Shown: positions 30,881 to 62,989 of the stretch, piece by piece
Numbering within the stretch: the stretch's first letter is position 1
Layout: each line of letters begins with the position of its first letter
Origin: Thelephora terrestris
Lineage: Eukaryota > Basidiomycota > Agaricomycetes > Thelephorales > Thelephoraceae
DNA: 64,000 nucleotides
Assembly: GCA_015956445.1 (NCBI GenBank)
Contig: WIUZ02000005.1
Location: 62,001 to 126,000, forward strand
Direction: 5' to 3'
The notes under the pieces: generated by a model
What the model was told of the DNA's origin: nothing
Database searches by the model: none
Seen by the model: the letters and a program-made list of their open reading frames with translations, nothing else
Program-made: the position numbers and the translations under genes

Positions 30881-33470
30881 CGCGCCCTGAGAAAAACTTT
30901 CGCTGAACAGCGGTTCGACCGATCAAACCCAGACCTGTTTGCTTTACGCGCTTGGGCTTGCTACATCGGAGTGCAGGGACTCCTCTCAACAAGCTGGGTG
31001 CGGTTGGCACATCAATCAAGGTCAAGGAGGCACATTCCAATTTTCAGCCATGTCTGGTTTCTATCTGACTGCTCTCCGCGTTAGGACCTGGAACGGATGT
31101 GCAAATGCGTCCGAGATACCAATCGTTTGGATTCTTTGAAACCCCACTACACCAAAAACGACATCAGCCCTGAGATCGGTGTCACCAAGCGCGGCCTAGA
31201 TCTTAAGGCACACGCTTCAAAAATCGCATCCGGAAGTCTGAGGACCAGGTGAGGGCCTATTTTTTTTACGCCCTCCAGCATCACACCTGATTGATCTGTC
31301 GGATGGTCCCGCATAGCACCTCCGTTTCAAAACTGACCAAGGCAAATTCAAAGGTCGCGTGAAGGGAGTTTCAGGCAAATCTGTCAAGGTCGCCCCGAAG
31401 ACCAAATTCAGTGAAACTGCCAAAATCGAATACGTCGTCACGGTTGGCAAGGAGGGCCTCACCATCGCTGGAACCTCCCGCGCGAGTCTGGTCTTAGGCG
31501 CTTTCGAGGGTGCAGGTGCACTCCTTTCTAGCCCGTTTGTACGAAAGATTTTCTTCCCGGATTTCCACTTCACACGTTGAAGCGGCCCAAGATGCCCAAG
31601 ACTCAGCCCAAGATCAACTTTACCTACCGGCCCTTGAACGCACCTCAGAGGAAGGCAGGGGAGAAGTGCCTTAGTAATGAGGAGGAAGACCGCCGCGTTG
31701 TCGTTGTTGTAAGCTCACGCATCCTTGTTGCCTTGGTTCGGCTCACAGCGGGTAACAGGGGCCGCCAGGGACCGGCAAGACCACCGTAATCGCGGCCGCT
31801 GTACAGAGAAAAGTCGCAGAGCGCGGGTCAAATACAGTCTGGGTCATTGCGCAGTCAAACGTCGCAGTCAATAAACGTCGCGGAGAAATTTGTCGACTCT
31901 AGTTTCTTGTATTTCAAGCTCCTCGTCTCGCAGGATTCCCATTTCGACTGGTAATGCTTTTCTGAATATGCTACCTCGTTCTCTTTGATTGACCGAGGCC
32001 GAATGGCACTCAAGGCATGAACATCTGTACGAAGCCATCCTCGACAACATGATCGACTCTGGGGAGTTCCAAAAGTCAATAGTCGACAATGAAGGTCTCT
32101 TGATGGGAAGTCGGGTCATCCTTTGCACGACAAGTATGCTGTCGGGGAACAGGGTCATGGACTGTGGGTTCACGACGCTATAGCGGCTCCTTACGGACAA
32201 GAGGACATCCCGGAGCTAAGGAGCGTGTTTGAGTGGTCGTACCTCAGGGACAATGAAGTCTTCCTCAATACCCAACGTATGTTTTCTTCCTCTCCCAAGC
32301 TGATCATCACGTTTTCTCTTTCTTATCAGATCGAATGCCAACAATCATCAGAAGCTTTATATCTCGCCACGTCTACTCTTCGAAACTCCACACCGAACGC
32401 AATATTCGACTCGAACCTGCTGTCGCTTCGTTGGCGTGAGCAACGGAGGGGAGACCAAGAAGGGTGTTAGTTGGGTATGCAAGGCTCTCTCCAAACACGA
32501 ATCCATCGCTGAGGCTGAAAATCCGCGCCCTGTTTAGAGCAAGGGCGAAATTCAAGCCGCAGTCCGTATAGCCAAGCAACACATCCAGGAGGGCAAAAAC
32601 TTCAAGATCATCACCCCTTACGGTGCCCAACGAAACGCGATCGAGAACGCGCTCAAGACGGCAGGCCTCACCTGGGAAAACGCCGTGTTCAACGTCGACT
32701 ATTTCCAGGGAAACGAGAAAGACCACATCGTAGTCTCGGTCGTCCGAACGTCATCTCTCACTGGGGGCAAGGGCACCTGGAATTGGTGATTACATCTTGA
32801 TTACATGGTGAGTTCATGTGCACTTTTCAATGATTGTAATCGCCGATTCCAGGTTGATTACATTTCAAATGTTACCTTGACATGTAATCCAACCAATGTC
32901 CACCAATTCCATTTGAAATGTTCTCACCAAATGTTTCTGGGATGTTTTTTACCTGTCGGCAAAAATGATATTGCAATGTAGTCAACATGTTCTTCAATCG
33001 TCCGAGATGTAATCTAAATGCACTCAAAAACATGAGATGTTTTCACAATGTGCCCAGTAGGCACATTCAGGAAACATTGCTTGGGAACATTTTGAGGAAA
33101 TTTCAAATAGAGTTGGTGGGCACAGTTGAATTACATGTCAAGGTAACATTTGAAATGTAATCAACCTGGAATCGGCGATTACAATCATTGAAAAGTGCAC
33201 ATGAACTCACCATGTAATCAAGATGTAATCACTGATTCCAGGTGCCCCTGCCCCCAGTGTCTGGGGTTCACGAAGAACATGAGGCGGACGAACGTGATGC
33301 TTTCGAGGTGTAAGAAGAGCATGGTGAACTTGACTCATTGTTTGTTCTTGCAGAAAAAAGCGGTCGCAAAGGCAGTTTGCGAAGGAACACGTACCCAAAA
33401 CTGGCTGGGTGACTTTGGAAGATCTGATTCTTCGCCGGTGGCAAGCCGTTCGACCCGTTTGATATCGGGG
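30881..33470 (+). pseudogene. UPF1-like SF1 helicase, internally deleted and interrupted
   Basis: Recognisable SF1 helicase pieces in order: a leading domain (RFDRSNPDLFAL; GVSGKSVKVAPKTKF near 31370), motif I GPPGTGKT after a 50-nt intron (31708-31757), motif Ia-like VWVIAQSNVAV, the segment GSRVILCTTSMLS, motif III-side APYGQEDIPELRSVFE, then FKIITPYGAQRNAIE, FQGNE and VVSVVRT, and finally MRRTNVMLSRCKKSM. Between GFTTL and APYGQ the Walker B segment (DEAS-type) is missing, a deletion that would abolish ATP hydrolysis. Several stops and frame changes follow, and a 501-bp MITE lies between motif VI and the MRRTN segment. From memory, this helicase is heavily amplified in Agaricomycetes. Here it is certainly dead. 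Confidence 0.8.
32759..33259. mobile_element. 501-bp palindromic MITE, CACTGGGGGC ends, TSD TCT
   Basis: The ends are CACTGGGGGCAAGGGCACC and its inverted partner (GGGGCAGGGGCACC type). The arms match for about 130 bp, with GATTACATCTTGATTACATG and GCCGATTCCAGG in both. The flanks are TCT at 32756-32758 and 33260-33262. CACTA-superfamily elements begin CACT and make 2-3 bp duplications, so this is best read as a non-autonomous CACTA-type element. It has no coding capacity. It landed inside the helicase relic. Confidence 0.85.
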
Positions 33471-41870: not shown

Positions 41871-42144
41871 TGTGACAGGTACCCACCGATGCCTCTTTAC
41901 GAGCTTAAAATGCGCCGGCGATGAGTACGTCTCGTTCTTCTACACTCGCCTGCCTTATCGTGTGCATCGCTCACATAATCTACCTCATACTTCCCCGAGT
42001 CGACTACACATATAACATGGCCTTCAACCTCGCCCTCAGCCTCACGCAGAACTTCCTCTGGACTATCTACTCCCTCCTGTCCTCTCGTTCGCCCCTTCCT
42101 TGATTTCCACTCCGGACCAAGGACCATCTTCCGGTGCTCTTCAC

Positions 42145-42983
42145 ACTGGGGGCAATGGGACACTTACCCAGCAAATGCATTGTGATTGCATTGTGATTTT
42201 TTAGACAATGTGTCCAGCCTTTGGCCAGGAGGTACATGCTGAGTTCTTTTACAAAGTGCCCATCAATGCGACCACAATGTGGCCAGTGGGTCCATCCCGA
42301 TCACTTTTACAAAGTGCCCATCAATTCGATCACAATGTGTCCTGTGGGTCCATGCAGGATACATTGTAAAAGTATCCATCAAAGTGGCCACTGGGCACTT
42401 TGTGAAAGAAACCCCTGGTTTCTTTCACAATTTTGCTTACAATGTGTCCAGCATACACCTGAGCCACTCATTGAGAGTTCTTTCAGAAAGTATCCAGCAA
42501 TGTGTCCACAAAGTATCCAACCAGATACTCAATGGTTTCTTTGAGAGTTTGTTGTGAAATCCAACCACATTGAGAGTTCATTGTGAAAACATTAAGAAGA
42601 ACCCCCTGGGGACATTTTGGTCACATTGCTGGTTACTTTTTGAAAGAACTCTCAATGAGTGGCTCAGGCACCCAGTAGGATACATTGTGAACAAAATTGT
42701 GAAAGAAACCAGGGGTTTCTTTCACAAAGTGCCCAGTGGCCACTTTGATGGATACTTTTACAATGTATCCTGCATGGACCCACAGGACACATTGTGATCG
42801 AATTGATGGGCACTTTGTAAAAGTGATCGGGATGGACCCACTGGCCACATTGTGGTCACATTGATGGGCACTTTGTAAAAGAACTCAGCATGTACCTCCT
42901 GGCCACAGGCTGGACACATTATCTAAAAAATCACAATGTAATCACAATGTAATTGCTGGGTAAGTGACCTATTGCCCCCAGTG
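42145..42983. mobile_element. 839-bp fold-back element, CACTGGGGGC ends, TSD TCA
   Basis: Arms of about 345 bp form a near-perfect hairpin starting CACTGGGGGCAATGGG/CACTGGGGGCAATAGG. The arms are rich in variants of TTACAAAGTGCCCATCAA and CACAATGTGTCC. Flanks are TCA at 42142-42144 and 42984-42986. The open frames found on both strands inside are mirror images of the palindrome and not genes. The termini match the MITE at 32759, but the interior is different sequence. Confidence 0.85.
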
Positions 42984-42986
42984 TCA

Positions 42987-44535: not shown

Positions 44536-45925
44536 ACTGCTATCGTGCCTTCTGCAGCTACCCAGCCCCTTCTCCCAGCCCCTTCTTCAGATCTTGTTCT
44601 CGCCCATTCCTCGGCTCTTCTTCCTACCCCTTCCTCAGATCTTGTTCCTGCCCCAGTTCTTGATTCTTGCCAGGCTGATGTTGATCGCGTTGTTCTTGAA
44701 CCCACTCCCGTCACTGCTCTCCCGATCTCCCACATGACCCCCGAAATTCCTCCCAGCCAGCGTTCCGGTTCACCTGGCGATGGCTCGGAAACGGCAGCGG
44801 CTGCTACGAGTACCTACAAAGCTCGAAGCAAACCCAATGTGACCGCCACTACGGCACCACGACGCGATTCCATCGAAGGAGCGCCGGAGATCATTTTGAC
44901 GCTGATCGGGTCCGGGTATGAACTTCTGAAGCAACCGGATGTCCCATCATTTGCCACGTCTTCTCCCCCCACGTCTTCTTCCCCCACACCTTCCACTACA
45001 TCGTTCGGGGAGATTGTACCCTCATCGCAACAGTCACTCGAGGGGTTTTTGACAATTCCCTCCGATACCTCCCTTGCTCTTGAACATCCCCCCCCATCAC
45101 ACCAGCCACTCGACGGACCTTCCATCGCCACCGAGTGCTCTACCCTCCTCGCCTCTCGGATCACCCCCAGTTACCGAATCGACAGATCGGACATTCCCTC
45201 TTGGCTCATCGAACGTGGAAGGCTCGACTCCGTATTAATGGTGGAGGCAGGAAGTCTATGGGAGAGACTCATTGCCCTCTGGCTCCGGCAGGAAAGAAGA
45301 CTTGGGTTTGGCCTTGACGAAAAGATCGTACGTTCAGGATTTTGTTCTCCTCTCTCGCATTCTCTAACAATATCTTCATAGGGAACAAACTTGCCCATGA
45401 CGAACAAGCCCCAAATCCTCAAAGAATACTTCAAATGGCGCCACGACCCTTCCAAGGGGGATGCAGTCACGTTACCAGAGTTTGGCAAGGAGGTTACGCT
45501 CTGGTGGTCAACTATTCAACCCAAGTGGCAACACGGGGGCCAGACCTCCCCCAACAATAGCAATGATTACTCCTACGCGCTTGCCGGTGGAAAGAAGGGC
45601 GTCTTCCTCCTTATCTTATGCCTGGCTTGGTGGGATCACAGTTTCGGTAAGAACCTGAACCGCACGAAGGAAGAACGTCGCGCAGGACGACGCCGCCTTG
45701 GATTTCAGCGACCTACCTACCTACGATGCTGATTGGTCAAACATTGTCAATGACCTCATCTTCGTCTTGGAGCTCGCACAGGGCTGGCCAGTTCCCACCA
45801 AGGGTACTCCCGAGACCCCAGTGGTAACATCTGGACAACCGGAGACCAAAAGGGTAGCATCTGGGCGAAAGAAGAGAGCGGCTGAGGGAACAAACACTTC
45901 ACGAAAGAGACAGAAGTCGTCTTGA
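44536..45925 (+). CDS. Unrecognised agaricomycete family gene, frame slip near the 3' end
   Basis: The frame runs from inside the upstream element to 45327, then splices (GTACGT donor, 54-nt intron, TTCATAG acceptor at 45381) into 45382 onward. The first plausible ATG is 44734. The N-terminal half is Pro/Ser/Thr-rich. The C-terminal half is ordered: SDIPSWLIERGRLDSVLM, WERLIALWLRQERRLGFG, LPEFGKEVTLWWSTIQPKW, KKGVFLLILCLAWW, and finally DADWSNIVNDLIFVLELAQG with a basic tail (RKKRAAEG, SRKRQKSS). I recall this ordered part as a recurrent orphan domain near mushroom transposons, with no known role. To reach the last block the frame must shift by one near 45650-45700; a GTAAGA...GCAG 39-nt intron does not restore phase. 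The 5' end is probably truncated by the element. Confidence 0.5.
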
Positions 45926-46832
45926 TCATTCCTCTATCGTTGTTCCTGTTGCCACCCCATCCTTAGCTAACGACCTGAATTGCCTGTGCCCTTCTCAGGG
46001 TCGTCCCCACACGTTTCCTATCGTCCAACCACATTCCACCCTCCTGTCTTTTCGTCTACCCATACAGTTGTATATCGCTCCCGTCGTTTTTCCTTGGCTT
46101 TGCCACTGGTCCGTTGTCGTTACGCCACCACAGTTACTCTTCCGTACAAGTAGCTACTTATACCGCTTGTATTCAGCACCTCTAGGCATGTCCGATAAGC
46201 TGTTCTTTGACATGCCTGTGCCAAATTGATCGCATTGAGTCTTGAACGGGAGATGTCACGAACAATCGATGACCGTATTCATTATCGGGTTTGTTCCGAT
46301 GGCCGCTGTCCATTGACTGACATTTTTGTCCTAGATTGCCGGCAGGCACTGTATGTCAGCCTCCCGGCAGGACTTCGATTCCAAATGGGGAGGGTAGTTG
46401 ACCTCCCAAGTCTTCCATTCCCTAACTTGGCCATCGGGCGATCTTGCCATCGACCCATGCGTTGTCACAATAAAAGCGCAGTCGTGCAGGCGTATGGCGC
46501 GGCCTGCATTCCCCCAGCCCTCCTCATGCAGCACAGCGCAAGGATGTGTTCCCCTGCCCCCTGCGATTTCCGCACCGGTCACTCGAACCGTTTGACACCT
46601 GTCACGCCTACTCCGAAACGTGCCCAAGGCAGCAGTGACCTCACGCGAAGCCCCATCTCCGCAGTCGAGTTCTCCGCGAAGAAGTCTAGCCGGGACGACA
46701 GTGTCTTTCGCAAATATAAGGCAAGTTTGAGACTTGCGACAACCCTTGTCACCTTCGAATGGGATGCCGAAAATTCGAAGGGTACTCTTGTGCCCATTCA
46801 GTAGTGAGCCGTTTCGGTCTCCTGCTGAGAAC
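45926..46832. other. Possible relic exon chain upstream of the next gene
   Basis: An open frame to 46804 includes the coding-like block FSAKKSSRDDSVFRKYK, ending at AAG|GCAAGT (46720/46721), a textbook GC-AG donor. None of the acceptors downstream keeps phase with the gene at 46833. It may be the 3' end of a separate, unrecognised gene. Confidence 0.3.
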
Positions 46833-47583
46833 ATGCTGACTCATTCACGGACAAGCCCTTTAGACGGGGACGGACAGCCAGTCGATCCATTGCAGCTCCC
46901 AAATTTCCTGGAGACACGCAACTGGGACAGACCGTCGTGTTTCTGTCTGCTGTGTGGATCCCACCACAAGGCTCAGTTCCTTGTTCCAACCTGGCGTGAT
47001 TCGCCATCGTATAACGCGATGTGCCTGGTTTGTCCCGAATCAGAGTGTTCTTATTTCGGTGAGTCCCACAAGCTGTCTGCTTCACAAACGGTTACGGTAA
47101 CTTTGACATACAGTGAATGTTAGTGAACTGATGGAAAAGTACAAGGATCAAGTTCTGTCCGTGAAGGACACCGATTCCACTGAAGGTGACTCGGAGGCGT
47201 CGAACGTTGGTGAGTACATATCAACAGAACCACTTACTCTAACCTGAACTGTGTCTGACTACTGGATGTTTACCCTAGATATCACGGCGGAGGCTGGCCC
47301 GAAGAAACGCAAGCGTGATCTTCGAAAGAAGGTCTCCAGGAAGATCGAAACGGTGCCTGGTCACGGTGTTGGCCCGTCGTCCGAGAGCCGCCCTCAGTCA
47401 CATCCAGACGACCAACTGTCTGCGGGGCTGGCTTCAACGATCTCCAACCTCCTCTGCAGACACGGGGTCCTACAGGAACAATTCTATAAGGAATTCCGTG
47501 TGTGTGACTACTGTCGCAGAATTGTTTGCAACGATACCTCCCGGCGTGATGGCCATGTTTGTGTAATTGAGGTAGAAGACTAG
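46833..47583 (+). CDS. Unrecognised three-exon gene with Cys pairs, 208 aa
   Basis: Exons 46833-47058, 47114-47209 and 47279-47583 join in frame across introns of 55 and 69 nt (GTGAGT donors, ACATACAG and CCCTAG acceptors) and end at TAG 47581-47583. The N-terminal part has CFCLLC and, 23 residues on, CLVC followed by C, a plausible zinc-binding arrangement. The middle is a short acidic helix (ELMEKYKDQVLSVKD), then a nuclear-localisation-like KKRKRDLRKKVSRK. The C-terminus has CDYCRRIVC and HVC, a second possible metal site. DNA or RNA binding is an inference from the basic cluster and cysteines. The start is the first ATG of the open exon; an upstream exon cannot be excluded. Confidence 0.55.
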
Positions 47584-48239
47584 TGCCCGCTTAATTTTGT
47601 GTCGAACGAATCATCTACAGTTGCGCCAATATATTTCTTGTCATTGATGCGTGCAGAAGCGTCTATCCCGAGGTTTTCGAAAGAATATCTACTTTAATTT
47701 ACAGCCTGGGAAGACGCCACGTGCATCAGACTCTAGAACTTGTAAGTTATATGTTGTCGCGCCGGCGAAGACAGGGGTGTTGATCCCAGCGGCCGCAACT
47801 TCTTGTTGTCATTTCTAAGAAGGTGCGGGTTGGTGGCCACGTATGTTGCATTGCAGGCTCAATGATAACAAATATTATAATAATGTCGGGAAAAACAAAC
47901 TCGGTTACAATCGTTTACAGTTACAATCAATTACAGTTAAAGAGACCGGTGGAGCCCCGCAAAGGCTATCGAGAGTGTCCTTCGATAACTCGCCAATTGG
48001 GACCGTCGCGTGTATCAGGGTGAATGGGAGAATGATTGTTGAGGACACTGGGGAACGTGGGAGGCGGTTACAAGACATCGTGGAAGGCTGAACGGTATCT
48101 ACCAGCCAGTTTGAGGTGCACGCTGAACTAGCTGAACACTCCGGGTAATCGGATACCCTAAAAAGAGTGTACAAGCAGTTGAGGTGGGTACCGGTTGAGT
48201 GTTGAGTTCTGTACGACCACCGGAACAGAAGATCTGTTC
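47584..48239. other. Spacer with a short open frame
   Basis: The plus-strand frame ending at 48091 contains a block (VSFDNSPIGTVACIRVNGRM) with protein-like character, but no start or splice support. Upstream is AT-rich (ATATTATAATAATG). Confidence 0.3.
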
Positions 48240-50361
48240 AGAGATGCCCGAAGATGTCTGGAGAATCGCCGGGGAAGACCGCAACGACTAGAGTAAAGCG
48301 CGAGTTTCGAGACAAAGCAGAGGGGGATAGGAACCGAGGTTGCGGAGAGTTGCGATGGAGAATCACTGCGAAGTCGTAAAGTAGCTGAGGCAGGCTTTTG
48401 GTAGGAGCAAGAGAGAAGGCACAGAGAAGCCGAGAACTTGACTTGAGAACTGGAGAGCGAACCGGAGAACTGGAGAACTCGGACTGAAACTGAACTGGGG
48501 GATCTGAGTCAATGCATTCCAGGTTATCTAAGACACAGTATATAAAGGAAACCGAAGAATCTCCTAAATAAGCAGTGTCGAGATAGTCCATGAGAGAGAA
48601 GGGGAACGGAAAAGCAAAACTAAGAGGAACTTGGTAAGAGGGGTAACTACTAGGGGGGGGGAAACGACGACGAAGGCTGAGTAACTACAGGGACGATGAC
48701 GAAGGGGTGACGACGGCATGAGAGGAAGCCGCGTCATACAGGAGAAAACGCAGGGGAACAGAAATTGAGAGCGGAAGATAGCAATGGAGGCAAATGCCCG
48801 GAGAACGGAACGGTGCGGGGAATGGAACTGATCGATCGACCGGGAAGTTCCGATCAATAAGGAATCGCAGGGACGAGAGCGCAGAACGATGGGATAACCG
48901 GAGATCGATGGCGGGAGGGATCGATAACGATAGATAGCGATGGCGAAGGGCTAGAACGAGAGTCGAAACGAGGATGGAAGGCGAGGGGAACGAGGCGTTG
49001 GGGATATCAGAGTTCCGGAGGGTCGGATAGCGTGTGGCGGATGGCAGAACACGAGGATTCAAAACAGGGTTCCCGAGGGGAGGTGCGAAGCGGGGAAGAA
49101 TGTCCGAGAAACAATAGAGGCGGTCCGGTGATCAGGCTGAAGGCTGCTTCGAGGCAGTCGCGAGGCCAAGAAGAGTCCGGAACTCAATGGAGTCGAACGA
49201 CCAATAGGAAGGAATCGGAGATTGGGAGTTTCGACGTCGCGACAACACGGATCGGGAGAAGTCGTTACCAACAATGGAAGGGGGTGCGGAAGGGGGTGAG
49301 TGAAACGGGCCGAACTTACCGAGCTGGCGGGTAGGAAGCACGGATCGAGGACGAGGAGATGAGACGCTCGTTGACCAAGTAAGAAATCTACATACTGTAT
49401 AGATTCAGGTAGGGTTGCGGGCGAACGTGGGGATGCGGTAAAGCGGGGTGTCGATGACGAAACTGAGGAGATAGAAAGGGACTTCACAAAAGGGAAGGGT
49501 ACTTGCACAAAGGATGATCCGGAGAGTGGGGTGTCATTGTCCAATCAGAACGCAGCGTCTGCAAACAGCGCGGAGGATAATGAACATTTGTTGCTCACGG
49601 TGGCGTACATTAAGAGAAAAGATGAATGAAAGGGGTTGGGGGATTGTCAAACAAGGCAGGAAGGAAAGTGTATCGAGGAAAGTGTCGACCAATCATCGCG
49701 CAGCGTCTGCGGAGCATGCGAAGGATTCGGGACGGGTCTGCTCACGCGGGACGCAACAGATGAAAGAGATCAATAAAATGGGAAGGGAAATGCACAAAGA
49801 AGTACGTATCGGGAAAAACGAGGACCAATGGAACTGGGGCATGAGAGAGGCGCCTGAGAATGCAGGGAAGTCCCGTTGCTGACCGTAAACATGACAAACG
49901 GCGGTGCAAGCGATACAGGAAAGGGCTTACCAAACAGAGCAAGAGAAGAGCGGTTGTCGGGTGTCAGGATGTGCCAGCATCAACCAATCGACGCAGAGCA
50001 GCGTGCGGAGAAATAGGGAGAGGCAATCTTCTTTCGGCGGAACGTGGATAGGAAAAGGGACCGGAAAGGCAAAGGAGTTGCCAAGCAGAACAAGAAGGGA
50101 GCGGGAGGCGGGACGTCGATAAGGAAACAGAACGGAAAGGGAGCTGCAAAGCTGAGCAGGGAGGGAGCGCAAGGCGGGAGGCTTACTGGGCGTCGACCGA
50201 CGGCAGAGCGGCGTCTACGAAGCGCACATGGGGGTGGGAGGGTCGTTACGGAAAGGGGCAAGGGAGGGAAAGGGAAAGGGAGTCGCCAAGTCGAGCAGGG
50301 AGGGAGCGCAAGGAGGGAGGCTCACTGGGCGTCGACCGATGGCAGAGCAGCGTCTACAAAG
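48240..50361. repeat. Purine-rich tract with degenerate minisatellite
   Basis: The plus strand is strongly G/A-biased for 2 kb (GGGAAGGG, AGGAGGGAGG), so the minus strand shows many open Ser/Pro/Leu-rich frames that are compositional artefacts. Near the right end a unit of about 140 bp repeats: GGCGTCGACCGACGGCAGAG at 50190 and a near copy at 50329, both preceded by GAGCAGGGAGGGAGCGCAAGG. Weaker relatives with CCAATC and GCAGCGTCTGC occur at 49541, 49690 and 49984. A TATATAAAGG lies at 48539. No gene is called. Confidence 0.5.
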
Positions 50362-50699
50362 CAGTAGTCCTTATTAAAAACATTAATGTTTTAGGAGTTT
50401 TTGTCGCAAATTTGAATGATTTTTCTCATGAGTTTTTGAATGGCCTGAGGGGGGATATTTTACTCATAAAGTTTTAATGGAAATTATGGGGGGGACTGGG
50501 ACCCAGCTTACTGGGCACTGGTGCTCCCAATTAGGCAGGTGCCGACAGTGTGGGTGGCCCGGGGGAGTGGATTGCTTATATAATAAAAATTGAAAAATTC
50601 AGGGAAATTCCAGAAAATTCTGAAAAATTCCCACAGGTGTCAGGGAGGGCAGAAAATGAAAAATGGACTGTGGGAATTCTGATCAAAATTTCCCAAAAA

Positions 50700-51085
50700 G
50701 GAAATTTTTGATGGCTTACATAAGCAACTCAAAAATGATTTTGATATTGAATTTCCTTTTTGGGAAATTTTGATGGCTGACATAAGCAGGTCATGTGACT
50801 GAAAAAAGTGGGTGTTGCTTATGTAATCAGGTCATGTGACCGACCAAAAAAGGAAAGTTTTGATGGCTTACATAAGCATCTCAAAATGCTTTTGGAGGGG
50901 TCTTTCCTAAAAAGGAAATTCCTTTTTAGGAAATATTTGATGGATTACCAAAAAAGGAAATTTTGATGGCTTACATAAGCAGCTCAAAAACGCTTTTTGC
51001 AAAAGTTACCAAAAAAGGAATTTTCCTTTTTAGGAAAGAGTTTCCAAAAAAGGAAATTTTGATGGCTTACATAAGCAACTCAAAA
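50700..51085. repeat. AT-rich direct repeats in left arm (mirror in right arm at 53490-53870)
   Basis: Six copies or variants of TTGATGGCTTACATAAGCA spaced 50-100 bp apart, usually framed by runs like AAAAAAGGAAATTTT. Two copies are linked to GGTCATGTGACCG, itself nearly palindromic. The same set is inverted in the right arm. Confidence 0.8.
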
Positions 51086-51483
51086 ATTATTTTGGCAAAA
51101 ATTACCAAAAAAGGAAATTTCTTAAAAAGGAAATTATATGCTAGAAAATTCGGAAAAAGGCCAGAAAAATCCTAAAAAATACTGAAAAAATTCCCACACG
51201 TCTAGAAAGTGCCCAAAATGGTAAATTATTCCCAGAAATATTCAAAAAATTGTTTTTCCGGCCGGAAAAATCAGGAAAAAATTCCAAAAAAATTCCAAAA
51301 ATTCCAGAGTATAGATAAATATTTTATAAAAATTATTCCAATTTTTTTGGTCCATTGAATAGCTCATAATTTCAATATTAATATATTTTTTGCCCAAAAA
51401 ATTCATAAAAATAGGAAAATACAAATATATCTGTAATATTCATTATATCATGAAGTACAGACCAGTTTGTGGTCATAAACTAG

Positions 51484-51745
51484 CCCTAAACCTAGTCCTG
51501 GACCTAACCTAACCTAACTTAGCCTAACCTTAACTCTAACCCTAACCTAGCCTAACCCTAACTCTAACCCTAACCTAGACCTAAACCTAACCTAACCTGA
51601 CCTAACCTAACCTAACCTAACCTAACCTAAACCTAACCTAACCTAACCTAAACCTAACCTGCCCTAAACCCAGCCTGCCCCAAACCTATCCTAGCACCAA
51701 ACCTAAACCTAAACCTAAACCTAACCTGCCCTAAACCTAACTCTG
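51484..51745. repeat. Degenerate telomere-like CCTAA array, left arm
   Basis: Mixture of CCTAA, CCTAAA and CCCTAA units (for example AACCCTAACTCTAACCCTAA). It resembles degenerated fungal telomere repeat (TTAGGG) but most units lack one C. It is interstitial here, with unique sequence on both sides. Confidence 0.8.
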
Positions 51746-51763
51746 ACCTGGCCTAGTTCAGCC

Positions 51764-51769
51764 TTATCT

Positions 51770-51800
<31 letters not shown>

Positions 51801-51812
51801 TCTTACCTACCC
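51764..51812. repeat. TATCT array, left arm (about 8 units)
   Basis: Tandem TTATC units ending in TATCTATCTTA. The inverted counterpart in the right arm is roughly twice as long. Confidence 0.85.
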
Positions 51813-52250
51813 TAGACCCAACCTAACCTGACATAGTCAACTTAACCTGGTCCACCACAGATCACCCAACCTAACCTAAAGTGGTCTACCTGACCTAGAC
51901 TGATGCAACTTGAGTTTATCTCTTCTAATCAGCTGTTATCCTATCTGGCCTTAATCTAAATACCGTAGCTAACCAACATCTAACCCAACCTCACCTGGCT
52001 CACCAGCAAGTAACTGGGCTACAGGAACACACTGCGAGCTGCACCATCCCATATCCTGTATCCAACTGTCACTCAAACACAAGAACTGTGGTGGACCTAC
52101 AAGTTAAGTGGACCCATAAGCCCACAGACCCACAAGTATAGGCTGTTCACTCAGTGGAAACATCTGTTATCCATCCTCACTCACGTACCACCCTCACCCT
52201 GTGTTCTGTGCCAGACTGCAACTTCACCACAGCTCATGTTCAGCCACCTA

Positions 52251-52299
52251 GCTAAACCCATGTACAATCAGGTCTACAAATCCATGGATCCATAACAAG
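52251..52299. other. Central 49-nt spacer of the palindrome
   Basis: The only non-mirrored stretch. It contains ATCCATGGATCCAT, itself a small palindrome, which would form the tip of the hairpin. Confidence 0.8.
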
Positions 52300-52744
52300 T
52301 AGGTGGCTGAACATGAGCTGTGGTGAAGTTGCAGTCTGGCACAGAACACAGGGTGAGGGTGGTACGTGAGTGAGGATGGATAACAGATGTTTCCACTGAG
52401 TGAACAGCCTATACTTGTGGGTCTGTGGGCTTATGGGTCCACTTAACTTGTAGGTCCACCACAGTTCTTGTGTTTGAGTGACAGTTGGATACAGGATATG
52501 GGATGGTGCAGCTCACAGTGTGTTCCTGTAGCCCAGTTACTTGCTGGTGAGCCAGGTGAGGTTGGGTTAGATGTTGGTTAGCTACGGTATTTAGATTAAG
52601 GCCAGATAGGATAACAGCTGATTAGAAGAGATAAACTCAAGTTGCATCAGTCTAGGTCAGGTAGACCACTTTAGGTTAGGTTGGGTGATCTGTGGTGGAC
52701 CAGGTTCAGTTGACTATGTCAGGTTAGGTTGGGTCTAGGGTAGG

Positions 52745-52759
52745 TAAGACAGAATAAGA

Positions 52760-52790
<31 letters not shown>

Positions 52791-52826
52791 AGATAAGATA
52801 AGATAAGATAAGATAAGATAAGGCTG
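52745..52826. repeat. AGATA array, right arm (about 15 units)
   Basis: Inverted counterpart of the 51764 array but about twice as long, so the two arms have changed length independently. Confidence 0.85.
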
Positions 52827-52849
52827 AACTAGGCCAGGTCAGAGTTAGG

Positions 52850-53105
52850 TTTAGGGCAGGTTAGGTTTAGGTTTAGGTTTGGTGCTAGGATAGGTTTGGG
52901 GCAGGCTGGGTTTAGGGCAGGTTAGGTTTGGGGTTAGGTTAGGTTAGGTTAGGTTAGGTTAGGTTAGGTTAGGTTAAGTCAGGGTTAGGTTAGGTTAGGT
53001 TAGGTTTAGGTTTAGGTTAGGTGTAGGTTTAGGTCTAGGTTAGGGTTAGGGTTAGGCTAGGTTAGGTTAGGTTAGGTTAGGTCCAGGACTAGGTTTAGGG
53101 CTAGT
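52850..53105. repeat. Degenerate telomere-like TTAGG array, right arm
   Basis: Inverted counterpart of 51484-51745: GGTTAGGTTAGG runs with TTTAGG and TTAGGG units (GGTTAGGGTTAGGGTTAGG near 53040). Order and number of units differ slightly from the left arm. Confidence 0.8.
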
Positions 53106-54211
53106 TTATGACCACAAACTGGTCTGTACTTCATGATATAATGAATATTACAGATAAATTTGTATTTTACTATTTTTATCAATTTTTTTGGGATTTTTTT
53201 GAATTTTTTGGGCAAAAAATATATTAATATTGAAATTATGGGCTGTTCAATGGACCAAAAAAATTGAAATAATTTTTATAAAATATTTATCTATACTCTG
53301 AAATTTTTGGAATTTTTTTGGAATTTTTTCCTGATTTTTCCAGCCAGAAAAACAGTTTTTTGAATATTTCTGGGAATAATTTACCATTTTGGGCACTTTC
53401 TAGACGTGTGGGAATTTTTTCAGTATTTTTTAGGATTTTTCTGGGATTTTTCCGAATTTTCTAGCATATAATTTCCTTTTTTGGTAATTTTTGAGTTGCT
53501 TATGTAAGCCATCAAAATTTCTTTTTTTGGAAACTCTTTCCTAAAAAGGAAAATTCCTTTTTTGGTAACTTTTGCAAAAAGCGTTTTTGAGCTGCTTATG
53601 TAAGCCATCAAAATTTCCTTTTTTGGTAATCCATCAAATATTTCCTAAAAAGGAATTTCCTTTTTAGGAAAGACCCCTCCAAAAGCATTTTTGAGATGCT
53701 TATGTAAGCCATCAAAACTTTCCTTTTTTGGTCGGTCACATGACCTGATTACATAAGCAACACCCACTTTTTTCAGTCACATGACCTGCTTATGTCAGCC
53801 ATCAAAATTTCCCAAAAAGGAAATTCAATATCAAAATCGTTTTTGAGTTGCTTATGTAAGCCATCAAAAATTTCCTTTTTGGGAAATTTTGATCAGAATT
53901 CCCACAGTCCATTTTTCATTTTCTGCCCTCCCTGACACCCGTGGGAATTTTTTCAGAATTTTCTGGAATTTCCCTGAATTTTTCAATTTTTATTATATAA
54001 GCAATCCACTCCCCCGGGCCACCCACACTGTCGGCACCTGCCTAATTGGGAGCACCAGTGCCCAGTAAGCTGGGTCCCAGTCCCCCCCATAATTTCCATT
54101 AAAACTTTATGAGTAAAATATCCCCCCTCAGGCCATTCAAAAACTCAGAAAAATCATTCAAATTTGCGACAAAAACTCCTAAAACATTAATGTTTTTAAT
54201 AAGGACTACTG

Positions 54212-54945
54212 GATGATTGCCAAATAGGAGGGTGTGCGCATCGATTGGGACGAGAGGGGGGGTGTCGACCAATCAGTGGTTGGCGATGGAACATCCCAGT
54301 CGCCCTTGGGTAGGGGATGCCCATTCGAGGGGAACCTGATAAGCGGAAAACTTTCCTGAGAGGGAAGGTAGATTACTCACTTGATCTAACGTTCGGACGA
54401 CCCGATTGGTCTGGGAGTTGGGGGAAACGGGTTCCACGTCATCGCGAGCTGGCAGGACAGACAGCCCGAGGACGGTAGCCGCGTAGATGGTGAGGGGAAG
54501 GGGTGAGAGGGGAAATGCAGTTGCAGCACGCGGAACCGAGATCAGCTTGATCGGGGGAATCCGAACCAATTGTGGCGTGGGGTGCCATTCCCACGGTCGC
54601 GACGCTTTGCTGGGTACGGGAAACCACCCTGGGGACGGGCAGGAACGTTCCCTATGCAGAAATCCAAGGAGGGAACCCATCAGGGAAAGAGGCGCCTGGG
54701 ATTCCCGCCTGATCGCGGGATGTGGTCACGCCATCACTAACGAAGTCCATATTTCACACGGTTGCTACTCGCGCTCGCGTTGGGAAGGGCGTCGAAGAAC
54801 CAAGAAAAATATCAAATATATATATATATGGCCTACATGTCACTATTTATGGGGGGGGGCAGTGGTCAGTTGTCGGCGAGCACAGAGGCTGACCTCAAAC
54901 CATTAGCCCCATTTGGAAGGTGGGTCCCAGCCTGGCTGCCGGCTG
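54212..54945. other. Right flank of the palindrome, no gene seen
   Basis: Begins with sequence resembling the degenerate units left of the palindrome (CGACCAATC at 54268). A minus-strand open frame at 54273-54680 is Pro/Ser-rich with no motif, and a GTGAGT donor lies at about 54381 on that strand. A short (AT)n run lies near 54818-54829 and a G10 run at 54852. Confidence 0.45.
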
Positions 54946-55740
54946 CTACCAGTGGCCATCGTGCAAATACCTACAACCAGTTTGTCGGCCAGAATAACAC
55001 AACCAGTTGGCGCGGTTATTGCAGATTTTACAAACAATGGGGACCACCACTAGTGGGGCGGCGGCCAACAGTCCTGGGCTTCGTTGGCCGAGGGGTGGGA
55101 CGTTGACGTCCATTACCTCTTCCATGGTAGGCACGTTGTCGGGCACCGGTAGCTCGATAGTACGCCCTAGCCTTGGAGGGCTGGGTTCCGACGGTGGCGT
55201 CAACAACGTCTGCAACGGCCCTTCCTTCAGCCTAGGACACTGCTGACAGCCACAAGAACACTCACCATAAGTAGTTGACTCCGTTTTGGCAACGTCTGGG
55301 GCAGTAGATTCGAGAGGGGCGAGGTTTTCAAGGTATGCTACACCTTCGCTTTTTATACCCAAATTTACATTTATTTTCTTTCTGACTTCATCCTCAGGGT
55401 GGTCTGAACCCTTTTCACAAGTTCCCACAGGTTTTGAATCGATAAGGTGGCTGCGGCCCTTATCGTTTGCAAATTTATTCCAACTTTGTGCTTGGGCGCC
55501 AGTCGTTCCAGCGGAGGTCTGTGGGTCTCTTCCGTATTTGGGAAGACCCCAGCGCTTCTCGTCTTGATGCCGGTACCTATCGTTTCGTTCGTCGCCGGAG
55601 TCAGACTCCTCTGACATGCTGTCGTAAGCATTCTTGGTCCGTGGTTTAGTCCTTTCGTGGTAAAGTCCGGTGCATACCCTGAGTTTTCCGTCTTCTAGCT
55701 TATCGACCGTGTACATCCGGACTTTTTCGCCCTTGACCAT
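54946..55740 (-). CDS. Continuation of the long acidic ORF after an in-frame TGA
   Basis: This 264-codon frame lies in the same reading frame as the 724-aa ORF upstream and follows its TGA by two codons (CAC CCC, then ATG GTC AAG). It starts MVKGEKVRMYTVDKLEDG, passes through a charged low-complexity region and a Cys cluster (CSCGCQQC), and ends with ICKIC-like VCKICNNRANWLCYSG and QTGCRYLHDGHW, a compact Cys/His end that could bind zinc. No intron is needed to extend it. It is either a second cistron, the 3' part of one readthrough product, or the second half of a gene broken by a nonsense mutation. I do not recognise the family. Confidence 0.55.
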   Translation of the reverse strand: MVKGEKVRMYTVDKLEDGKLRVCTGLYHERTKPRTKNAYDSMSEESDSGDERNDRYRHQDEKRWGLPKYGRDPQTSAGTTGAQAQSWNKFANDKGRSHLIDSKPVGTCEKGSDHPEDEVRKKINVNLGIKSEGVAYLENLAPLESTAPDVAKTESTTYGECSCGCQQCPRLKEGPLQTLLTPPSEPSPPRLGRTIELPVPDNVPTMEEVMDVNVPPLGQRSPGLLAAAPLVVVPIVCKICNNRANWLCYSGRQTGCRYLHDGHW

Positions 55741-59564: not shown

Positions 59565-60188
59565 ATGTTCAGTCCCCCCAACCCTTTCCCCTCTACTAGT
59601 CCGGTCCAACGACCAAACGTTCCTGACGCCAGGAGATCTATCTGGGAGTATAAACTCATCAGGAGTCTCCAAGTAAACCGAACAGCCGGTTTACTCACCC
59701 ATTTCCCTTATTATCGACCCTTCGCAGCTCTCGACGCCGGAGTCACTACTCCTCCTTTCCTCTTAGGAGCAGATCACCAATTCCTCTGGAATTCAGATCT
59801 CACGGAAAGCGTCCTTGCGACCGTCTACTTCAGTATCAGTCCCGCCTTTTATTTTCCTTCCCCACGTATTCATCTTACTACTAACATCCATACCCACTCT
59901 CCTGCTATCATCGTTCTCTGGTGGGAGATCCCAACTGAATTACCTTATTCGGTTATAGAATACCTCGTCAACTTCGAACGTCTTAGCGACCAAGACTTCG
60001 AACCCTTTGTGCAACAACTCAGTCAGTTCTGCCAAGACTACCACTCGCCCGTCCACCCGTATCAGACAGAGTCACCCCTCTCCCTTGATATTCCCCCTCT
60101 TCTCGTCTCTACACCCGGAACCCCCTTCAAAACTCGACCCGACACCCCTCACCCATCCGCTAATCCTCTAGCGCCTCACAAACAGTAA
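59565..60188 (+). CDS. Hypothetical 207-aa ORF downstream of the LTR-like cassette
   Basis: Unspliced frame from ATG 59565 to TAA/TAG-type stop at 60186-60188. It has a Pro-rich start (MFSPPNPFPS), an ordered middle with aromatic clusters (SIWEYKLIRSLQ, LTHFPYYRPFAALDAG, FLLGADHQFLW) and IIVLWWEIPTELPYSVIEYL, and a Pro-rich end. No signal peptide and no known motif. It converges on the gag-protease ORF and overlaps its 3' end by 13 bp. The 75-bp distance from the cassette suggests transcription from it. No family is recognised. Confidence 0.5.
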   Translation: MFSPPNPFPSTSPVQRPNVPDARRSIWEYKLIRSLQVNRTAGLLTHFPYYRPFAALDAGVTTPPFLLGADHQFLWNSDLTESVLATVYFSISPAFYFPSPRIHLTTNIHTHSPAIIVLWWEIPTELPYSVIEYLVNFERLSDQDFEPFVQQLSQFCQDYHSPVHPYQTESPLSLDIPPLLVSTPGTPFKTRPDTPHPSANPLAPHKQ

Positions 60189-62989
60189 GCAGGCCTACAA
60201 CCCTGACACATTTCTCCAATTGCCACAGGTGAGTAGGGAAAATCTCTCCCTCTATCTTCTAGGCCCTGGGCTCCAATATGAGCTACGTTGCTTCCTATGT
60301 CGTCATCCTCTTCTTCTTCATCCGTTTCTGGTACTTCCTGTGCTTCCCTAATGGCATAGACTTCGGCCGGACTTTGCTTCCGTTCTGTCTGTGGTGTATT
60401 GGTCCCTTGCCTTTTTAGGTTAGAGATAGGGGTTATGTTGTGCCATCCGTTCTTGGTCCGGAATGCTATTCTTGTTCCCTCATTGTCTTCAATGAGATGA
60501 GCCCGATTCCTACGTCCCCAGGGTCTTCCCAAGAGTAGCTGAAATCCGACTCGAGGATTGACATACAAGTTTCCCCTGGTTAAGATTGGTCCATCATCAG
60601 TTTCAATCGTTATTTCAGCCATTGGTACCATTCCTGCACATCTGGTTAGGTTACCATCAACTGACAATAATTGAATTTGGTGCGGTTCAGCATCTAACCA
60701 AGGTATTCCTGCCTTTTCTGCCAAGTTCTGACTGATGACGTTGAGCTGGGATCCACTGTCAAATATTCCAGTCATCCGTGCTCTTCCTATCCTCACTGGT
60801 ACTTTCAACAAGTCTCCCTTCTCCGTCGTTATCTGGGGTTCCTTTACCTGTTCACTGAGGTAAGCTTCTTCTTCCTCCTCCTCTCCCTCTTCTTCCTCTG
60901 ACATTTCTGCATCAGATGGGTCTGAGTGATCGTCCTCGTAAATCCCAACAAAACCTGTTTTGTCCTGAGCTGGGGCCAAAGCCTCATGCTGTGGTCTCAT
61001 GGCGCTCACTAGGTTTCGTCGCAAGGAAGGCGCATTACTCACAATCTCCTGTACTGTTAGGGTAACTGGGGTGCTCAGAATTTCCTTGGTTATTTCTGAA
61101 CTGTCTCTTCCCACAGGCCCAGTATTAGCGACTTTGATGATGTTGGGTTTAGGTTGATGCGTAGGCTCCTTCCTTGTGCTCTTTATGGGTTTTATGGGGA
61201 TTGTCTTGTCGATGTTCATTGGCACCGCCTGTATGTCAGCTGTCTCCTCAGCTATGCCCTTGTTGATGTTCATGGTTCCCATTCCTTTGGGGTTCCTTCC
61301 TTGGTGGCCATTAGGATTGACGCTTACCTTGATGGGGGCTTCCTTCCTACCCAGACCATTTGCTTTGCCACCCCTGGGGAGTTTCTTCACCCCTTGGGCA
61401 CTGCTAGGTAAGTCTCCCTGGGCTACGTTTTTCCTATGAGCTTTGCTGACCTGTTCTGTCCTTATTGCGCTATAAGCTTGGTAATTTCCTACCTGCCCAG
61501 AGGCCCATCCTAGTTCCTCTTGTGCATCTGTCCCAGTGTCTTCTTCCTCGTATTCTACTTCCATGTAATTACATGCTGCGTCGTCTTCATCATGTTCATA
61601 TGTCCCAATTCGTGTGAAATGAACTTCTGCTACCTCACGCTGGATTGCCTGGACCCAAGTTTCTTCTTGAGCCCGGATTATTCGTGAGCTGTCAGGTCGT
61701 TGGAGTCTTCCACTGTTTGGTTCTCTCACAACTTTCCCTTGCTGGATTAGCTTGTTCACTTCCTCACAATACCTGATATGGTGCCCTGGCTGTCCACAAC
61801 CATAGCAGGTAATACTAATTCCAATTGCATTGGCTCCTGTTCCCAGAGCAAAACTCTTCTGAGGGGGTTTACTTGGTTGCTGAGGATTGGGGTTGGTTCG
61901 TTGTTGGGAAGGGGAATTGAATTGTTGACGGGGAGGGTTGTTGAATCTCTGATGGGGAGGAGGGTCTCTCTGGAATGTTCCACCTTGCCAAGAGGATCTG
62001 CTTGGGCCTTGTTGAACTGGGGCCTCTATTATGCCTTTGAGCTCTGGGTAGTTCCTGACAAGATTGACGTACTTTACTAGGTAGTCTGGTTTGTTGAGTT
62101 TCAGCCCACTCATGCTTTCAACTAGCTTGTTAAGTTCCTTGTCATCTTTCCCTTTGCCCTTCTTGGTCCTGGGAGGTGTCTTGGGTGGGGTGATGGGTGA
62201 CTTCCGTTGTGTAAGGGGTTTTACATCATGGTCTGACTCATCTCCAGAACTGTATCCGTGCTTCTTCTCCTTCTCATCATCATCCTCATCTGAGTCAGAT
62301 TCAGAGTCCGAGGAATCGTACCTAGTCCTTGTAGTGAGATGCTGGTCAAACCTGTTGGGGTTGAGGACTGAGTTAGCCGCCTTCTCTATGTCAGATATTT
62401 CAAATGGGATGGTAACATCCAACTCAGGGTTCACCATCCTCATATGAGATTCTGCCTGTCTTCTGAACAAGGAATTCAGTCCTTCCCAGAAATATCTGCG
62501 AACCTCTCGGTTGGAGATCCTCTTCCTTTCTTTGGCTAGGCCAACCAGCTTCCAGAATTCTAGCTGATATTTCTTAAACTCATCCAAGGTACGCATCTTG
62601 CGTTGTCTCCATTTGGCTGTGAATCCATCGATTTTTCCCATGTTCAGACATACTTCTTTGACTCCAAAGTAGTACTCCAAATCCTTCAAGAGATCGTGGT
62701 AATCTCTCTCAGCATGGGAAGGCAAACTCCGGAGCTTCCGAGCTACCTTATCACTGCAATATCTAATAAGCCCTTGGTACTTTTCTCTGGATGAGGTCAC
62801 TCTGTAACGCTCACAGAGGTGCTCATATGTCTCCAGGAAAGGTTCCAGGCTGTAGGGCTCCCCATCAAAGGTTCGGGGTGCTCTTGATCTGTTGGGGGAG
62901 GGCAGTTCCAAATAGGAACCAGAGTAGTGTCGATCTTCATTCCTGAAGATGGGGGAGTGTTCGTTTTCTGACTCTGATAGACGAGTCAT
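60176..62989 (-). CDS. Ty3/gypsy-type gag-protease polyprotein, 937 aa
   Basis: Intact frame from ATG 62989. Order: a capsid-like gag domain (RTFDGEPYSLEPFLETYEHL, then KVARKLRSLPSHAERDYHDL), a long charged linker, a CCHC zinc knuckle (C395-x2-C398-x4-H403-x4-C408), an acidic and basic linker (residues about 450-710), and a retropepsin-like aspartic protease with catalytic D744-S-G (IFDSGSQLNVIS) and the second hydrophobic segment FQLLLGRPWGRR. Gag forms the particle and the protease matures it. Family members are normally followed by pol (RT, RNase H, integrase). Here the frame stops after RPAYCL and no pol is found downstream. A primer-binding site and LTR edge precede it. No frame disruption is seen. 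Confidence 0.85.
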   Translation of the reverse strand: MTRLSESENEHSPIFRNEDRHYSGSYLELPSPNRSRAPRTFDGEPYSLEPFLETYEHLCERYRVTSSREKYQGLIRYCSDKVARKLRSLPSHAERDYHDLLKDLEYYFGVKEVCLNMGKIDGFTAKWRQRKMRTLDEFKKYQLEFWKLVGLAKERKRISNREVRRYFWEGLNSLFRRQAESHMRMVNPELDVTIPFEISDIEKAANSVLNPNRFDQHLTTRTRYDSSDSESDSDEDDDEKEKKHGYSSGDESDHDVKPLTQRKSPITPPKTPPRTKKGKGKDDKELNKLVESMSGLKLNKPDYLVKYVNLVRNYPELKGIIEAPVQQGPSRSSWQGGTFQRDPPPHQRFNNPPRQQFNSPSQQRTNPNPQQPSKPPQKSFALGTGANAIGISITCYGCGQPGHHIRYCEEVNKLIQQGKVVREPNSGRLQRPDSSRIIRAQEETWVQAIQREVAEVHFTRIGTYEHDEDDAACNYMEVEYEEEDTGTDAQEELGWASGQVGNYQAYSAIRTEQVSKAHRKNVAQGDLPSSAQGVKKLPRGGKANGLGRKEAPIKVSVNPNGHQGRNPKGMGTMNINKGIAEETADIQAVPMNIDKTIPIKPIKSTRKEPTHQPKPNIIKVANTGPVGRDSSEITKEILSTPVTLTVQEIVSNAPSLRRNLVSAMRPQHEALAPAQDKTGFVGIYEDDHSDPSDAEMSEEEEGEEEEEEAYLSEQVKEPQITTEKGDLLKVPVRIGRARMTGIFDSGSQLNVISQNLAEKAGIPWLDAEPHQIQLLSVDGNLTRCAGMVPMAEITIETDDGPILTRGNLYVNPRVGFQLLLGRPWGRRNRAHLIEDNEGTRIAFRTKNGWHNITPISNLKRQGTNTPQTERKQSPAEVYAIREAQEVPETDEEEEDDDIGSNVAHIGAQGLEDRGRDFPYSPVAIGEMCQGCRPAYCL

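Follow-up and report, generated by a model that had tools for sequence, protein, structure and literature searches.

A stretch of 64,000 nucleotides of Thelephora terrestris DNA (contig WIUZ02000005.1, positions 62,001 to 126,000; hereafter the window) contains a palindrome of 3,850 bp at window positions 50362-54211. This palindrome is a member of a high-copy, non-autonomous family of foldback DNA transposons, a conclusion drawn from 106 dispersed copies of its end word, 7-bp target duplications and paralogous empty sites. It probably belongs to foldback transposons with a KDZ driver. We consider it fairly likely that the element is moved by a KDZ-superfamily (Kyakuja-like) transposase supplied from elsewhere, with its arms homogenised within each copy and its host flanks lost or exchanged at the element ends.

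The palindrome and its genome-wide family

By self-alignment of the window, the inverted repeat was placed exactly at 50362-54211, with a left arm at 50362-52250 (+ strand), its reverse complement as right arm at 52300-54211 (- strand), and a central spacer of 49 nt at 52251-52299, in agreement with the arms of about 1.9 kb and the spacer described in the initial annotation. After 50 bases had been trimmed off each arm at the centre, global alignment of the arms covered 1,803 aligned bases, of which 24 were substituted, with 16 gaps in addition, many of the differences lying in or around a CCTAA-like array; the earlier description as near-perfect is fair, yet the window copy is among the less perfect members of the family. 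Open reading frames (ORFs) of at least 100 aa (table 11) are absent from the palindrome, save for one that overlaps its left edge by 6 bp, in agreement with the reported lack of genes, and no Rfam family was matched at the gathering threshold. CpG is depleted in the element, with an observed/expected ratio of 0.17, compared with 0.93 for the remainder of the window.

The ends (CAGTAGTCCTTATTAAAAAC) had been read initially as terminal repeats worth seeking at other loci, and the same ends were found to bound dozens of dispersed palindromes. In the 40.6-Mb assembly (60 contigs), the 18-base end word was matched 54 times in forward and 52 times in reverse orientation (106 in all), and chance is excluded because the reversed control gave 0 matches. 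At least 256 matches were obtained with the left arm as query, with many other palindromes among the best 40 of 341 candidates. Flanks were read at 103 of the 106 ends, an end-word search by itself selecting exact ends, and these were resolved into 44 convergent pairs and 15 single ends; an origin from half-elements, for which a search had been proposed initially, was not seen, 88 of the 103 ends sitting in pairs. The pairs were 1.2-17.8 kb long (28 of the 44 between 3.6 and 4.1 kb), and in several long pairs the surplus length was an insertion inside an arm. Long inverted repeats, themselves containing modular repeats, make up most of the element, and this is the foldback architecture; dispersed identical ends together with target duplications are a property of the family and not of the window copy. 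Of the two origins first put forward, the fold-back element is thus borne out by the dozens of dispersed palindromes. Support is lacking for the other, a recent inverted duplication, since the arms differ, the copies are many and their flanks are unrelated.

The family makes 7-bp target duplications. An exact duplication flanked 14 of the 44 pairs (one scores as 8), and in the remaining 30 the flank words differed at 3-7 of 7 positions (mean 5.3). An extra subfamily copy outside the 44 pairs (L037), the sequence of which departs from the others past the first 15 bases, carried CCTCGGA on both flanks as a 7-bp duplication. An intact 7-bp duplication, GTCTAGG, was also seen at L038 (C7:455900-461900), the interior of which is largely N. 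Empty sites were sought by comparing the flanks of 24 copies that have both ends with the loci fetched and with the window. Among the nine duplicated copies tested, five (L012, L022, L023, L024, and L025) had paralogous empty sites overlapping by 7 bp, and none was found among the fetched loci for the other four; secondary alignments gave stray gap rows of -13 (L012) and 45 (L022).

Arms were compared in 19 copies, with L010, L020, L022, L038, and L042 omitted for arm inserts, N sequence or short size. In 18 of the 19, the nearest relative of an arm was its partner in the same copy, and 7 of the 19 had no substitution between arms, while divergence of arms between copies had a median of 2.25% (quartiles 1.87 and 7.11%, range 0.25-9.24%; arms of the second subfamily are counted). 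Substitutions between arms numbered 3, 11, 2, 0, 6, 0, and 0 in copies with a duplication and 2, 1, 0, 0, 98, 1, 4, 0, 0, 1, 10, and 24 in copies without one, and the two classes were not separated by arm identity. Because the arms are nearly identical inside copies, we infer that they are kept alike by arm-to-arm gene conversion or hairpin templating. A simple hybrid of two sampled copies was not supported as the source of the window copy, which differed by 1.55-2.74% from the other arms listed and by 1.33% between its own arms.

From end to centre, each arm is laid out as a terminal segment, five subterminal motifs, a CCTAA-like array, a TTATC array and the spacer. The left terminal segment (50362-50500, + strand, starting CAGTAGTCCTTATTAAAAAC) is highly conserved among copies, and the right one (54076-54211, - strand) is 97.8% identical to it over 139 alignment columns. 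The left terminal 139 bp were 100% identical in the best 40 of 114 candidates, the ends of the second subfamily were about 80% identical to this segment, and among 16 first-subfamily left arms it was the least divergent 200-bp bin (0.44% vs 1.2-2.8%). The motif GATGGCTTACATAAGC (up to 2 mismatches) occurs five times at 50710-51076 (+ strand; starts 50710, 50772, 50862, 50965, and 51061) and in mirrored form five times at 53498-53865 (- strand; starts 53498, 53594, 53698, 53788, and 53850), and was found nowhere else in the window. A telomere-like CCTAA/CCTAAAC array at 51476-51755 (+ strand) is mirrored by a TTAGG array at 52830-53108 (- strand), and a 35-bp TTATC array at 51764-51798 (+ strand) is accompanied in the right arm by a 60-bp GATAA array at 52762-52821 (- strand).

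An origin of the CCTAA array by telomere fusion is unlikely, because 29 of the 45 genome matches to the stricter word CCCTAA lie within end pairs of the family and none of the 45 lies within 50 kb of a contig end. A looser CCTAA-type word gave 834 forward and 929 reverse overlapping matches (1,763). Among the 100 matches of the looser word that were listed, about 13 places lie outside the palindrome family, 7 of them forward-reverse pairs about 0.7-1.3 kb apart, and such paired sites (e.g. C1:1314511-1315880, C3:210160-211003, and C2:481794-482546) suggest further palindrome families.

Lost host DNA and rearranged flanks

The absence of a target duplication at the window copy, noted in the initial annotation, was confirmed (left flank word TACAAAG, 50355-50361; right flank word GATGATT, 54212-54218). 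At the start of contig C1 there is one place that both flanks of the window copy match, the left at 98.8% and the right at 96.2%, with 71 bp between the matches: the empty paralogue runs on from the left flank word into 71 bp absent from the window copy, and the host match resumes past them at the right flank word. The 71 bp were taken as lost at the window copy because the start of the stretch persists in tandem paralogues, both within the window and on C1; secondary gaps of -68 and 209 (88-90%, tandem unit) were set aside in favour of the 98.8% alignment. Window segments 44536-48126, 49248-50361, and 54212-55055 have counterparts with 96-99% identity right at the beginning of C1 (L044, C1:1-6000). 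This duplicate, which holds the empty site, is either a segmental duplication or a second haplotype.

Usable colinear partners were available for five copies without a duplication, and in three of the five, including the window copy, the loss was 65-71 bp, with both element ends exact. At L015, 68 bp were lost; many long terminal repeat (LTR)-like copies had 66-67 bases between the matched halves, each half reaching about 1 base across the query junction, one LTR-like copy having been read. At L014, 65 bp were lost relative to three empty copies, a figure that rises to 70 should the final five bases of the flank be filler. In this copy (C21), a CACTGGGG-type miniature inverted-repeat transposable element (MITE) of about 0.72 kb at 4967-5690, unrelated to the palindrome, is joined exactly to its right end, and no duplication of the MITE was evident at that junction. 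Relative to window copies, about 201-257 bp (161-217 by a cruder extrapolation) were missing at L034 and about 1,445 bp at L016, where the right match was 74 bp only; the host repeat is variable in both. The rows of L018, whose flanks are a tandem array, were dropped, and at least 11 pairs without a duplication, with flanks read for about 30 bp only, lay outside the empty-site test. No colinear empty copy was found by flank searches for L026 and L030, among all 39 candidates scored for L017, in the best 40 of 410 candidates for L042, which had no colinear continuation within about 340 bp, or in the best 40 of 385 candidates for L010 and L035; a search with the left flank of L034, the right flank not being searched, gave nothing. 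A candidate excision footprint at C5:490925-491432 (508 bases against a joined query of 500 bases) was not supported, as the 81 bases read retain the start of the 68-bp stretch.

These losses raise the question of whether duplication-free copies result from later random deletion or from a separate, regular event in which the two ends of the element become attached to host DNA at points about 65-71 bp from each other, the stretch between being replaced. The losses of 71, 68 and 65 bp, each with exact ends, speak for the regular event. Against it, there are three such sites only, and one of them carries the unrelated MITE at its junction; the deficits at L034 and L016 suggest bigger losses, confounded by host-repeat variation; other routes exist, as in L017 with flanks from different repeats and L042 without nearby colinear continuation; and exact ends are preselected by the end-word search. 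We therefore regard the regular event as a tentative and rather improbable explanation. Equally tentative is its extension, in which a second regular mode of settling, with about 65-71 bp replaced and no 7-bp duplication, would be accompanied by the same end-cutting at paired palindromes, giving inversions and inverted duplications. If this were true, the family would be a permanent source of chromosome rearrangement, and full palindromes would be at an advantage, either arm serving as either end.

Ectopic reciprocal exchange or misjoins were rejected as the main cause of missing duplications, because the shuffled 7-bp partners should persist, and exact partners among the 103 of 106 ends read, diverged ends excepted, were found for only 4 of the 75 orphan end words, in two pairs. 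With one mismatch allowed, 11 orphan matches were obtained against 11 in the same-orientation control, which is no excess; for exact matches, the same-orientation control gave 1 (a mirrored pair on C16) and the reversed control 0. Among the 75 orphan ends, two exact cross-matches occurred in the inversion sense, each between ends on one contig: C59:853824/937192, with copies 83 kb apart, and C45:1243353/1281367. When the letters of the words were shuffled, the mean number of matches was 0.206 overall and 0.024 for ends sharing a contig; of 2,000 shuffles, 1.75% yielded as many as two matches overall, and two sharing a contig were never reached. In both cases the match is confined to the right-hand words; a simple exchange should have left matching left-hand words as well, and these are absent.

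When joined in the inverted sense, the C59 flanks run unbroken across the junction in L009, L035, and L040, for which reason the two flanks are read as once adjacent; no copy spanning the C45 junction was found among the fetched loci. Chimerism of the C59 partners was not supported (arms 0.14% and 0.06% divergent within partners vs 0.37-0.73% between them). The swap may have come about by recombination, aberrant transposition or misassembly, and the first two are not distinguishable because the arms are non-chimeric. L017 (C2:467134-470858) has the left end of one subfamily and the right end of another, arms differing at 98 of 1,572 sites, and flanks that come from different repeats; from its sequence it is a recombinant, a chimera of two subfamilies. 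At C16:590314-597975, the arms are identical over 1,643 bp and each flank repeats the other in inverted orientation for 1,514 bp or more, a repeat being mirrored symmetrically beyond the copy (588703-588852 and 599437-599586, 97% and 99% to one query); this locus is an inverted duplication centred on the element, either real or an assembly fold. The left flank of the L032 palindrome consists of the initial portion of a copy of another palindromic MITE, which is present in the window at 32759-33259 with CACTGGGGG ends and an apparent 3-bp duplication, TCT.

The candidate driver and competing explanations

One end pair, C3:1044747-1057121 (12,375 bp), has the same end word, a 7-bp duplication (GCCGTGA), and inverted repeats of 1,283 bp with 100% identity, between which matches to two Pfam domains were detected, KDZ transposase (PF18758, E 1.1e-34) and CxC2 (PF18803, E 7.4e-33). 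CxC2 is described by Pfam as associated with KDZ transposases. The first 155 bp of this member are 82% identical to the window ends, and its CpG is not depleted (0.86-1.17). Because the same end word, the 7-bp duplication, long inverted repeats and both domains are combined in one element, a KDZ (Kyakuja-like) enzyme is the likely mover of the palindromes. The 7-bp duplications and CA..TG ends reported for Kyakuja of Laccaria in the available sections of PMC12730594 are both present in the palindrome family. The palindromes thus probably work like a KDZ element; they are not filed as a proven Kyakuja member because of the 1,283-bp inverted repeats of the C3 member.

In the mechanism proposed here, an element without its own transposase and made almost entirely of long inverted terminal repeats would be recognised at its shared CAGTAGTNC ends by a KDZ-superfamily (Kyakuja-like) transposase encoded elsewhere, and inserted by it into staggered 7-bp cuts, in accordance with the duplications observed. 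Arm-to-arm gene conversion or hairpin templating would subsequently keep the arms of each copy alike. Flanking DNA would be lost or exchanged at the exact ends by deletion at or after insertion, by inversion between copies and by recombination between subfamilies, outcomes of each kind having been seen; the window copy, short of 71 bp of host sequence, would be a case of flank loss.

Several observations weigh against a KDZ driver. The KDZ gene of the C3 member is split by a nested 0.86-kb palindromic MITE between two KDZ parts, because of which this copy is probably broken and does not provide an intact driver. It resembles the palindromes over about 155 terminal bp only, and the subterminal motif GATGGCTTACATAAGC was absent from the pieces of it that were read. 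Only 2 of 125 KDZ matches in the genome lie inside an end pair, both in the C3 element (coordinates compared by eye), and the duplication is absent in 30 of the 44 pairs. In the available text of PMC12730594, Kyakuja of Laccaria is reported to be without terminal inverted repeats, and hAT7 elements of rust fungi are reported to make 7-bp duplications too. The window itself contains a palindromic MITE at 42143-42984 (arms of about 371 bp, ends CACTGGGGG..CCCCCAGTG, apparent 3-bp duplication TCA), copies of which lie inside the C3 KDZ-coding element at 97% and in C16 at 95%.

The same observations bear on the possibility that the palindromes are moved by another superfamily with 7-bp duplications (hAT7-like or P/Galileo-like), the KDZ member being due to chance or secondary. 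Such duplications are made by the hAT7 families of Puccinia (PMC12730594) and by Galileo, a P-superfamily foldback element with similar arm behaviour (PMC2775673), and the short terminal similarity of the KDZ member and the rarity of KDZ matches in end pairs agree with this explanation. It is opposed by the KDZ and CxC2 fragments flanked by perfect long inverted repeats, the family end word and an intact 7-bp duplication, and by the finding of none of 73 tnp2 matches inside an end pair, hAT and P genes not having been sought. We consider a driver of this kind unlikely, if still worth keeping in mind. The elements of the CACTA/EnSpm group have CACTA-like ends and a duplication of 2-4 bp. As driver, CACTA/tnp2 was not supported, given the 7-bp duplication and the lack of tnp2 genes in end pairs; the single end C12:938106 does have a tnp2 match at a distance of about 4 kb. 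In the window, an ORF at 7702-9102 (+ strand) resembles a tnp2 (CACTA) transposase, and an ORF at 60176-62989 (- strand) has a weak likeness to a retroelement aspartyl protease, below Pfam cut-offs.

Long palindromes are prone to assembly errors, and the mirrored flanks on C16 and the inversion-like swaps on C59 and C45 could come from misassembly, which would favour the view that the palindrome is a fold-back artefact of the assembly or the library, or else host DNA duplicated once in inverted orientation. A fold-back read would, however, be identical in both arms, and those of the window copy differ by the substitutions and gaps given above; the 44 end pairs lie in different flanks, 14 of them with exact 7-bp duplications, and empty sites exist. 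Swapped flanks alone, moreover, cannot yield 71 of 75 orphan words without an exact partner. For the family, an artefact or one-off duplication is thereby largely refuted, and it is very improbable as an account of the palindrome. A cellular role as a source of hairpin RNA for RNA silencing, to which a transcript able to fold into a hairpin of about 1.9 kb would lend itself, is just as implausible, as no Rfam family was matched and the copies behave as mobile DNA with target duplications.

Relation to known foldback and KDZ elements

Foldback transposons have been linked to P-type (PMC2775673) and Mutator-type (PMC3169594) enzymes, and in flies they have been tied to natural inversions (PMC2775673); these and the following comparisons refer to the available portions of the cited papers. 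The library searches made for foldback elements or long inverted repeats in combination with fungal or KDZ terms gave no paper, and no description of palindromic KDZ elements was found in the available portions of papers from a looser search. A KDZ-linked, fully palindromic family with dozens of near-perfect copies would extend the foldback link to another transposase superfamily. The family also offers a natural set for the study of the upkeep of arm identity, the missing duplications in two thirds of pairs and the rate of chromosome rearrangement.

The Tm1 elements of root-knot nematodes differ from the palindrome family in duplication length and driver. Foldback architecture is shared with Tm1, which is Mutator-related (PMC3169594). 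KDZ1-KDZ3 of Cryptococcus are alike in having a KDZ transposase and terminal inverted repeats, and differ in the length of the repeats (139-241 bp) and in their 8-bp or 4-8-bp duplications, no palindromic members being found in the accessible part of that report (PMC12810828). Kyakuja/KDZ elements of Agaricomycotina are alike in their 7-bp duplications, CA..TG ends and KDZ gene in the coding member (PMC12730594). In contrast to Kyakuja of Laccaria, described there without inverted repeats, the coding member here has perfect ones of 1,283 bp and the non-coding members are full palindromes. Galileo, the P-superfamily foldback element of Drosophila, is alike in its long, internally repetitive inverted repeats and 7-bp duplications, and in the exchanged duplications at inversion breakpoints (PMC2775673). 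Its inverted repeats are more than 99% identical within each of two copies and about 7% divergent between them (PMC2775673), a relation that the higher arm identity within than between copies of the palindrome family resembles. The copies of Galileo at inversions are chimeric (PMC2775673), whereas the C59 pair is not; the palindrome family further differs from Galileo in its host, in its lone coding partner, which is KDZ and not P, and in the two thirds of its copies that are without a duplication.

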